Shown here: positions 16,439 through 51,310 of the stretch, in pieces | Layout of the letters: each line of letters starts with the position of its first letter | Position numbering within the stretch: position 1 is the stretch's first letter | Assembly: GCF_017888565.1 (NCBI RefSeq) | Contig: NZ_JAGHFX010000058.1 | Location: 62,001 to 126,000, forward strand | DNA length: 64,000 nt | Source: Clostridium sp. | GTDB taxonomy: Bacteria; Bacillota; Clostridia; Clostridiales; Clostridiaceae | Direction: 5' to 3' | Made by a program: the position numbers and the translations under genes | Notes under the pieces: generated by a model | Seen by the model: the letters and a program-made list of their open reading frames with translations, nothing else | What the model was told of the DNA's origin: nothing | Databases searched by the model: none

Positions 16439-16546
16439 TGGAAAAATCAAAGAGCGAAAGAATGAAAAGGTTAAGCATGTTTTGCTTTGCAAAACTAAGA
16501 TTAAATTAGTGTAAAGCACATTTTTATTCAAAAATCCTTAATTTTC

Positions 16547-16775
16547 TGATTTTTATATAATATCGAATACAATTCTAATTTAATAATCTAAATTGAAAAT
16601 ATAAGATGGAGAAAGAATCACTACTATGCCAAGGGTTTTGGTTAACTCGCTGTGTTCAAACAATTAGGCGATACTTAGGCCTAGTAGTTCTTTCTTAGCC
16701 CAGTGTTTCTACTTGCTCGCTATATGCTTAGTTCACATATCCTATTTATCCTTGCCAATTTTAAATTTAATAGTG
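16547..16775 (-). repeat. Intergenic repeat family copy A (shorter, core in reverse orientation)
   Basis: CTACTATGCC..GGTTTTGGTTAACTCGCTG.GTTCAAACAATTAGGC is reverse complement of the core of copies B/C; shared flank GATTTTTATATAATATYGAATACAATTCT. Confidence 0.75.
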
Positions 16776-36788: not shown

Positions 36789-39029
36789 ATGGATAAAGAA
36801 TTTATAGTTTTAAAGGGCTGTAAGGAAAATAATTTAAAAGATGTTTCATTAAAAATACCTAAGAGGCAAATAACAATATTTACAGGGGTATCTGGTTCAG
36901 GAAAGTCATCTATTGTTTTTGAAACAGTTGCAAAGGAAGCACAGCGTCAATTAAATGAGACATTTAGTGCTTTCATAAGAAATTTTTTACCTAAGTATGG
37001 TGAAGCTAAGGCGGATCATATAGAAAATTTATCGACACCAATTATTATTGATCAAAGTCGACTTGGAGGTAATTCAAGATCAACTTTAGGTACTATTACA
37101 GATATAAATTCATATTTAAGAGCTTTATATTCAAGATTTGGAAGTACTTATATAGGTAAAGCCAATATGTTTTCCTTTAATGATATTAATGGAATGTGCC
37201 AAGAGTGTGAGGGACTTGGTAAAAAGTTAGTTCCTAATATGGATGAAATACTTGATATGGATAAGTCTTTAAATGAAGGAGCTATTTTACTTTCAGGTTT
37301 TGGAGTAGGTTCTTGGCACTGGAAGATATTTGTTCAATCAGGCTATTTTGATAATGATAAGAAAATAAAGGATTATTCAAAGGAAGAATTGAAAAAGTTT
37401 TTATATGGAGAGTCACATAAAATTCAAATAGATGAAACAGGTACAACAAATATAACATATGAAGGATTAATGAATAAGTTTAATAGATTATATTTAGGTA
37501 AGCAAGGAGATACATCTGAAGCAACAAAGAAAAAGTTAAGTAAGTTACTTATAGAAGATAAATGTCCTCTTTGCCATGGAAAAAGACTTCATCAAAGAGT
37601 CTATGATTGTTTAATTAATGGGTATAATATTGCAGATTTAACTAGTATGCAAATTGATGAATTAGTTAAAGTGATAAAAGAAATAAATGAGCCAGAAGCT
37701 GCACCTTTGATAAAAGGAATAACAGAAAAATTAAACAATATAATAGATATAGGACTTGGGTACTTAACTTTAGATAGAGAAACATCAACACTATCTGGTG
37801 GTGAATCCCAACGTATAAAAATGGTAAAGTACTTAAATAGTAATCTTATAGATTTAATGTATATATTTGATGAACCAAGTGTAGGGCTTCATCCAAGAGA
37901 TGTACATAAGCTAAATGATCTTTTAATAAAATTACGTGATAAAGGTAATACAGTAATAGTTGTTGAGCATGATCCAGATGTTATAAAGATTGCAGATCAT
38001 ATTATTGATGTAGGTCCAAGAGCAGGAAGATATGGTGGAGAAATTGTATATGAAGGAAGCTATGAAAATCTGCTTACATCAGGTACATTAACTGGCAATG
38101 CGTTAAATAAAGCTTTAACTATTAAGGAAAACGTAAGAGAACATAAGGGATACTTAGAAGTTATAAATTGTAATAAGAATAATTTGAAAAATGTATCTGT
38201 GACAATCCCAAAAGGAATATTAACTTTAGTAACAGGTGTTGCAGGGTCTGGAAAAAGTACATTAATTAAATATGAATTTTTAAAGCAAAATAAAGATGCT
38301 GTACTAATAGATCAAAGTCCTGTATCAGCTAATTCAAGATCTAGTTTAGCAACATATAGTGGAATTATGGATAATATAAGAAAAGCTTTTGCAAAAGTAA
38401 ATAATGTTAATATATCACTATTTAGCTCAAACTCAGAAGGAGCTTGTGAAAACTGTAATGGAACTGGGGTTATAGAAACAAATCTTGCATTTATGGAAAA
38501 TATAAAGAGTACTTGTGATGTTTGTGAAGGTAAAAAGTTTAGAAAAGAAGTTTTAGATTATAGATTCCAAGAAAAGAACATAATAGAAGTCCTTGAAATG
38601 TCAGTTACAGAAGCAATAGAATTTTTTGATATAAAACCAATAAAAACAAAGCTACAATCTATTGAAGATATGGGAATTGGATACTTAACTTTAGGTCAAA
38701 CACTTGATACGTTATCTGGAGGTGAGTGCCAAAGGTTAAAGCTTGCTAGTGAATTACATAATAAAAGTTCAATATATATTCTAGATGAGCCTACAACAGG
38801 TCTTCATATGTCTGATATTGAAAAGTTTGTTAATATAATTGAGGGGATTGTAGATAGCGGAAATACAGTTATAATTATTGAACATAATATAGATGTAATA
38901 AAAAGAGCAGATTGGATTATTGATATGGGACCTGAGGGTGGAACAAGAGGAGGAGAAATAATATTTGAAGGAACACCAAAGGAACTATGTAACTGTAAAG
39001 AATCATTAACAGCAAAATATATTTCTTAA
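36789..39029 (+). CDS. UvrA-like ABC-ATPase paralog
   Basis: GVSGSGKSS, CQECEGLGK/CPLCHGKRL and CENCNGTG/CDVCEGKKF Zn motifs, LSGGESQRIK. Confidence 0.92.
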   Translation: MDKEFIVLKGCKENNLKDVSLKIPKRQITIFTGVSGSGKSSIVFETVAKEAQRQLNETFSAFIRNFLPKYGEAKADHIENLSTPIIIDQSRLGGNSRSTLGTITDINSYLRALYSRFGSTYIGKANMFSFNDINGMCQECEGLGKKLVPNMDEILDMDKSLNEGAILLSGFGVGSWHWKIFVQSGYFDNDKKIKDYSKEELKKFLYGESHKIQIDETGTTNITYEGLMNKFNRLYLGKQGDTSEATKKKLSKLLIEDKCPLCHGKRLHQRVYDCLINGYNIADLTSMQIDELVKVIKEINEPEAAPLIKGITEKLNNIIDIGLGYLTLDRETSTLSGGESQRIKMVKYLNSNLIDLMYIFDEPSVGLHPRDVHKLNDLLIKLRDKGNTVIVVEHDPDVIKIADHIIDVGPRAGRYGGEIVYEGSYENLLTSGTLTGNALNKALTIKENVREHKGYLEVINCNKNNLKNVSVTIPKGILTLVTGVAGSGKSTLIKYEFLKQNKDAVLIDQSPVSANSRSSLATYSGIMDNIRKAFAKVNNVNISLFSSNSEGACENCNGTGVIETNLAFMENIKSTCDVCEGKKFRKEVLDYRFQEKNIIEVLEMSVTEAIEFFDIKPIKTKLQSIEDMGIGYLTLGQTLDTLSGGECQRLKLASELHNKSSIYILDEPTTGLHMSDIEKFVNIIEGIVDSGNTVIIIEHNIDVIKRADWIIDMGPEGGTRGGEIIFEGTPKELCNCKESLTAKYIS

Positions 39030-39115
39030 CTTTATTATGAAATATATTCTAGATTATAACTGAATCACATTATTTATAAAATGAGAATTAAACTTAAGGA
39101 TATGTATTAACTTTT

Positions 39116-39477
39116 CGATTTTTATATAATATTGAATACAATTCTTAATTTAACTGAGTAAAGTTGCAGAATATAAGTTGGCGAAGATAAATCGACTTTG
39201 GAATAAGCATATGGTAAGCAATTTGAAGTACTTGGTGAAGGAAGACTATTAGGCATTAGTGTTGCCTAATTGTTTAAGCATAGCGAGTTAAGCAACACTC
39301 TTGGCATAGCAGATTTTTGAAATTTAATATGAACATCTAATTCAGATAAGCTTCAGTAGATAGGCTTTCATATTAAGTTTAGCTAACTTCACTAAGTATT
39401 AAATGCATGCGTAGCTATTTAAGGTTATGGAACATATACTATTTATCTTCGCCTTTATATTGGAATTTAATATAGTG
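39116..39477 (+). repeat. Intergenic repeat family copy B
   Basis: Core bounded by perfect inverted repeat GGCGAAGATAAAT (39180-39192) / ATTTATCTTCGCC (39441-39453); homologous to copies A and C. Confidence 0.85.
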
Positions 39478-39510: not shown

Positions 39511-39960
39511 CTATTCTATACTTCTCTGTAACTTCTTTTTAAGACCATTAGCGAATACTGCAATTATTATTGAAATCAGGATAGGTAAGGCTCCTATCAG
39601 TATCGCTCCTGGTGCATCATCTTTATCTGCCAATAGAATAATAAAGGGCATCACTAATAAATACAAGGTACTGATTGTAATTGCACAATATTTTATAGTA
39701 ATTAAAGCTTTAACAGAAGCTTGTGAGGAAGCTTTGTTCTTGGAAATATAGCTTAAAAGTTTAAAAGATTTATACAATGCAATATAAAACGGTATTACTG
39801 ATGTATATATACCTATTAAAATTGGATATAGTATATAGGCATAATCTGGATTTGCTGAATTATTAGCTAAAAAATAAAAACCAAATACACATAAAGCAAA
39901 AACAGTTATACTAATAAAAATAATAGCTAATTTGAAAAAAACTGTTGTTTTTTGTTTCAT
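39511..39960 (-). CDS. DUF2975-like membrane protein
   Basis: Four hydrophobic segments; RBS GAGGTG. Confidence 0.65.
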   Translation of the reverse strand: MKQKTTVFFKLAIIFISITVFALCVFGFYFLANNSANPDYAYILYPILIGIYTSVIPFYIALYKSFKLLSYISKNKASSQASVKALITIKYCAITISTLYLLVMPFIILLADKDDAPGAILIGALPILISIIIAVFANGLKKKLQRSIE

Positions 39961-50960: not shown

Positions 50961-51310
50961 AGGTTAATTCTTCATTTTATAAGTTTAAGTGTAGAATATA
51001 ATATGGCGAAGATAAATAGACTGCGGAATAAGCATATACAGGCATTAGAAGTAGTTGGCGTGGGAAGAACTACTAGGCATTAGTGTTGCTTAATTGTTTG
51101 AACGCAGCGAGTTAACCAAAACTATTGGCATAGTAGTTTTTTCACCAATTAACAGGAGTATCTACTTTAGGCAAGCTTCAGTAGATGGGTCTTTATACTA
51201 AGTTCAGTTATAGCTTTACTTAACTTCACTAAGGATTCAATACCTGCGTAGCTATTTAGCTTATAGAACATATCTAGTTATCGTAGCCATTATATTCGAA
51301 TTTATAATTA
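50961..51310 (+). repeat. Intergenic repeat family copy C
   Basis: Core from GGCGAAGATAAAT (51005) to ..GTTATCGTAGCC (51288); shares GGCATTAGTGTTGC.TAATTGTTT.A.C..AGCGAGTTAA with copy B. Confidence 0.85.

Follow-up and report, generated by a model that had tools for sequence, protein, structure and literature searches.

A long intergenic hairpin of Clostridium belongs to an apparently undescribed superfamily with a constant apex

The presence of a dispersed, non-coding repeat between two tail-to-tail genes of a Clostridium genome has led us to wonder what kind of element it is and how its copies came to be where they are. The locus, copy B, lies in a stretch of 64,000 nucleotides (hereafter the window, whose numbering we use), for which the initial annotation had proposed a repeat element of about 360 bp (39116-39477) with terminal inverted repeats, either a MITE-like element or a structured RNA. 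Our analyses suggest that the repeat is real but differently bordered, since the hairpin proper occupies about 39170-39466 and is preceded by the remnant of a second hairpin at about 39073-39169. The perfect inverted repeat said to bound the core is present as well, although its two arms form the foot of a single uninterrupted hairpin almost 300 nt long. The parts of the locus, its neighbors, and the two other copies of the window are as follows.

39170-39466, plus strand: copy B, hairpin H1 in its long form, assigned by Blast family and fold (z = -5.3), apex strand plus
39180-39192, plus strand: left arm GGCGAAGATAAAT near the hairpin base, 13-bp perfect inverted repeat
39441-39453, plus strand: right arm ATTTATCTTCGCC near the hairpin base, 13-bp perfect inverted repeat
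39271-39289, plus strand: apical motif TGTTTAAGCATAGCGAGTT, a variant of TGTYTRARCnnAGYGAGTT (C89:101271-101289)
39331-39411, plus strand: module M2, found in the long form only, borders approximate
39073-39169, plus strand: remnant of the second hairpin H2 (TTTATAAAATGAGAATTAAAC...), borders approximate
36789-39029, plus strand: UvrA-like gene, converging on copy B from the left
39511-39960, minus strand: DUF2975 gene, stop codon facing copy B at a distance of about 45-49 bp beyond its right end
16614-16768, minus strand: copy A, partial H1, apex at 16644-16662 on the minus strand
50995-51297, plus strand: copy C, H1 in its long form, apex at 51095-51113

Copy B is an exact-armed repeat hairpin with converging genes on both sides, whose strand folds 5.3 standard deviations below dinucleotide shuffles and which is matched by our covariance model at C89:101211-101342. 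The conserved centre was found where it had been placed, the locus has no ORF of its own, and the 3'/3' junction is formed by the UvrA-like and DUF2975 genes. The order of motifs claimed for copy C holds, with equal orientation, in an alignment to copy B of 77% identity over 344 columns (50966-51310; E = 5e-64 within the window), and copy A, which an H2-like stretch adjoins at 16538-16613, is 77% identical to copy B over the aligned region (16621-16761, minus strand).

The repeat is not confined to these three loci, as the initial annotation had considered it might be, but occupies about 35 loci in its own genome (4.26 Mb) and recurs in many relatives. A BLASTN search of the genome with copy B gave 38 matches at E <= 0.001 (best non-self E = 7.5e-89), and queries with a short copy and with the outer module gave 60 and 24; the number of loci was obtained by clustering these matches, partly by hand and partly by computation. 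The H1 core hairpins fall into size classes of about 60 bp (e.g., C27:24836-24936), 210 bp, and 290 bp, the longest form, to which copy B belongs, containing the inserted module M2. The second hairpin H2 adjoins many H1 copies, its intact copies elsewhere bearing an apex identical to that of H1, and TTATAAATTGnGAATATAA or its complement stands at many copy ends. The idea that longer forms arose by nested insertion into loops was set aside because the short forms, examined by eye, look like slippage deletions between AAC or ATATG repeats. Module M2 also occurs alone, at L038 and L040 (genomes G010 and G036) and at L041 and L051 (G020); its copies in G010 and G036 overlap the 3' end of what we take to be one rRNA-methyltransferase gene. 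By DNA comparison the family was found in 12 of 99 relatives, C. tertium DSM 2485 (G006) and C. sartagoforme AAU1 (G014) among them, a few of the 12 matching weakly. Within the genus, a covariance model built on the 140-nt core recognized 11 of 69 genomes, none of which had more than 24 matches; in the class it recognized 9 of 291, the own genome counted. The view that the repeat belongs to no named family agrees with Rfam, which gave no match at or near the gathering score for the copy B element; plasmids, phages, and IMG/VR held no match to the H1 sequence or patterns.

Copy B is also a member of a much wider group, a large superfamily of long DNA hairpins scattered in Clostridia genomes that has apparently not been described previously. 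The distant matches of the covariance model have stems that are little alike and an identical tip: what stays constant is the apical loop TGTYTRARCnnAGYGAGTT, inside which lies a mini-hairpin with the triloop nnA, and further internal-loop motifs of the types CTTRGYGAAG and AAGCYTAG recur. The pattern TTTGAGCGNAGCGAGTTT, for which a mirrored control is void in the case of the A variant because GAGCGAAGCGAG mirrors itself, was found in 10 of 399 genomes of the phylum, belonging to seven genera, and its matches almost without exception cap a giant hairpin. The looser pattern TGTYTRARCNNAGYGAGTT, whose mirrored control is valid and had no match in any of ten genomes, occurs 12 times in the own genome, 51 times in G207, 37 in G576, and 23 in G401. 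Apex positions 8 and 14 covary (G-C 84, A-T 19, G-T 5, A-C 4, by a hand tally that leaves out G576), with a Fisher p of 7e-14 computed from a table off by one in two cells. As H2 in the own genome shares its apex with H1 but has a different stem, at least two subfamilies coexist there, and G207 has three main ones. The 51 hairpins of one genome measure 217-318 nt and fold with energies down to -162 kcal/mol. Hairpins are dispersed singly or as inverted pairs and do not form arrays; such pairs are frequent, with members 260-900 bp apart and apex strands outward (L346-L353 in G401 and G207; C52:38.9-39.4 kb in the own genome). The apex motif alone was also met in six viral contigs of IMG/VR (L310-L315), in three of which the adjoining terminator-like sequence presumably recalls Bacteroidota, so that the superfamily may extend beyond its phylum. 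The open literature yielded neither a described clostridial family matching the hairpins nor, one unrelated match apart, the apex string, and the subscription literature could hold a description. Intergenic stem-loop repeats are a known kind; it is the apex and the superfamily that apparently lack a description in the open literature and in Rfam.

While the tip is constant, the stems vary in sequence and keep their pairing. Among the 31 distinct stems that carry the constant apex, pairing runs average 9.6 bases within a copy against 5.3 when arms are mixed between copies. Two hairpins that G401 and G638 share as orthologs, 69% and 81% identical and next to orthologous proteins, retain 79 of 90 base pairs in one case and 77 of 85 in the other, and 14 pairs of each owe this to double compensatory changes. 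The initial annotation had recommended a covariation analysis of the copies, and in the core alignment two-sided changes touch 11 of 27 pairs (a count somewhat inflated by kinship of the copies); shuffles gave 1.8 and slid controls no more than 8. One strand is favored: when both strands were folded, the apex strand proved the more stable one in 51 of 57 hairpins and, in G207, in 50 of 51, and its G-U pairs outnumbered those of the complement by 326 to 168 and by 416 to 242, respectively. Kinship among copies makes the computed p-value too small, but the effect recurs in separate genera. Within the family of copy B, four of the fixed pairs are G-U and none is A-C, whereas copy-specific changes are balanced (62 versus 52); accordingly, we infer that selection once acted on the spreading form and that the present copies decay.

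It is also worth considering where the hairpins stand. In the lineages examined they show a preference for the position right after a stop codon, with their orientation fixed. Counting converging stops of open frames of at least 60 codons, and taking as right end the one where the apex strand has its 3' terminus, we found a stop within 30 bp for 28 of the 42 distinct right ends, with a median distance of 9 bp among the 36 that had a stop within 400 bp, as opposed to 3 of 35 left ends (median 147), a difference (Fisher p about 1e-7) whose n is inflated as orthologous copies of different species are taken separately. The same polarity holds in G207, where a stop lies within 40 nt of the right end in 28 of 51 hairpins and of the left end in 12 of 51; the trend is weaker in other genera, which were only sampled. 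Hairpins of G207 lie on the minus strand by 20 to 5 below 1.4 Mb and on the plus strand by 21 to 5 above 1.5 Mb, a switch to be expected, for an assumed position of the origin, if hairpins follow genes and genes follow replication. One copy is directly followed by an FMN riboswitch (L002:1915-2032), which suggests that hairpins can occupy the entire gap from a stop codon to the next promoter and leader.

Sister species exchange hairpins rapidly at the same sites. The orthologous C. tertium sites of 15 copies were located by queries with their flanks, which are mostly 92-99% identical. H1 is kept at four of them (C4:164 kb, C84, C27:95 kb, and C90, the last judged from an alignment of both copies), and the form differs at five (copy B, copy C, C99, C10, and C27:127 kb); the copy B site has only a minimal H1 with H2, and the hairpin of the C10 site is reversed. 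A family S hairpin or its remnants are found at four (C4:42 kb, C32, C35, and C52:41.6 kb) and no hairpin at the remaining two (C52:39 kb and copy A, the latter from computed anchors alone). At several sites both species share the same start point behind the stop, an example being TAATAGTTATAAATTG, after which one species has H1 and the other S. None of the orthologous sites compared was cleanly empty and flanked by a target duplication; they differ instead by exchange of modules. Family S is a second dispersed hairpin repeat, unrelated to H1 (TTATAAATTGCGAAGCAATTTATT...AAAGAATGAAAAAGTTAAGG...AAAATCCTTAAGGATTTT), present in the window at about 16440-16535 and from 16770, and in C. tertium at L194, L199, and L201; elsewhere, tandem repeats of the GTTCACAGTT type (L210 in G014) fill the site of a window-genome hairpin, L144.

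The explanation that we favor, at somewhat less than an even chance, is that copy B is a non-coding copy of a modular, non-autonomous mobile hairpin recognized as a folded single strand. We lean to it because of the constant tip, the free stem, the single favored strand, the stop-codon position, the exchange of whole hairpins, and a target duplication that was nowhere seen. One DNA strand of the element would fold into a long imperfect hairpin with the apical loop at its tip; a putative trans-acting factor would recognize this folded apex strand, as single-stranded DNA or as RNA, and install the hairpin where a terminator-like stem-loop closely follows a stop codon; afterward, copies may be shortened, extended, or exchanged as short repeats of the arms slip or recombine with one another. 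Other results count against it. No clean empty site with duplicated target came to light at the sites compared, no transposase or other gene recurs beside the copies examined, the neighbors checked being host genes, and no autonomous partner with the same ends was present among the matches and neighbors examined in these draft genomes. Y1 transposases gave no match in C. tertium, and one broken and one partial match in the window genome; the IS1182-type DDE domain PF13751 gave none in either. The palindrome TTATAAATTGCGAAGCAATTTATAA, considered as a common genomic target, was rejected with only three near-matches in about 0.35 Mb.

A serious rival, though we think it doubtful, is a cis-acting RNA, the transcribed hairpin being a terminator, an insulator, or a 3'-end stabilizer selected at each site. 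The G-U bias of one strand, the compensatory changes at orthologous sites, the location behind stop codons, and the frequency of converging gene pairs all speak for it, and the orthologous hairpins that G401 and G638 have both retained in place fit a local function equally well. Yet the favored strand runs antisense to the gene at whose stop it lies, so that the 3' UTR of that gene carries the less stable version; sister species lose and exchange the hairpins quickly; and these are large for terminators, and the G401 sequences seen lack a U-run at their right end. Improbable, in our view, is a classical DDE MITE, with terminal inverted repeats, a target duplication, and a transposase acting on matching ends. 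Of the MITE-like or structured-RNA proposal, the dispersed, non-coding, and structured nature of the copies stands, and their inverted repeats suit a MITE, but neither a target duplication nor a transposase with such ends was found at the sites and among the neighbors examined, distant members conserve the tip and not the ends, and the orientation relative to genes is fixed. Mutation without function, template switching in quasi-palindromes keeping long palindromes paired, would yield stems that pair whatever their sequence, and also the gains and losses of length between short direct repeats; as it leaves the constant apex across genera, the G-U bias of one strand, and the stop-codon position unexplained, we consider it very improbable. 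Least credible of all is an attC-like integron site, in which a cassette gene is followed by a hairpin of folded single-stranded DNA, for although structure kept over free sequence, a favored strand, and a fixed orientation directly behind stop codons recall one, the copies are single or in inverted pairs rather than arrays, the conserved boxes lie at the tip and not the base, and no integron integrase exceeded the curated cut-off of 265 bits in eight carrier genomes, where the best score was 82.

Returning to the mobile hairpin, several known systems offer comparison. Clop-1 (93 bp, C. perfringens), Efa-1 (163 bp, E. faecalis), and Bcr1 (B. cereus group) are likewise dispersed, intergenic, non-coding stem-loop repeats, compared here by description only; as they are described in the accessible part of that source, a shared apex on free stems across genera sets the superfamily apart from them (PMC2267715). 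Like REP and REPIN sequences with their RAYT, the hairpins are palindromic repeats outside genes, some in inverted pairs, but they are ten times longer, and C. tertium has them without any Y1 transposase. IS1272 swaps one palindrome for another at one site without target duplication (PMC5678879), and this stem-loop replacement provides a precedent for hairpin exchange, even though elements of that type are autonomous insertion sequences with ends of their own, to which the superfamily hairpins are unrelated. IS1182-type transposons with ends GGGGCTGTCGCA and A/T-rich inverted flanks were noted in two relatives, G010 and G018 (L222-L241), several of them just behind stop codons, as the hairpins are. 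Integron attC sites share the primacy of structure over sequence, the single folded strand, and the place behind stop codons, and differ in being arrayed, with a conserved base and an integrase. It is tempting to go further and suppose an ancient chromosomal superfamily spread as folded single strands by a putative enzyme that reads tip and fold, rewriting the gene ends of Clostridia, and with it an attC-like or RAYT-like system that works without integron integrase or Y1 transposase; we regard this, taken as a whole, as possible but rather unlikely.

A constant loop on free stems, in tens of hairpins of 200-300 nt per genome in several Clostridia genera, implies that something recognizes tip and fold on one strand. 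The identity of this recognizer would reveal a novel route by which non-coding DNA spreads or else a novel class of RNA located where genes end. Because sister species exchange whole hairpins at shared stop codons, the pattern is testable by comparison of strains.
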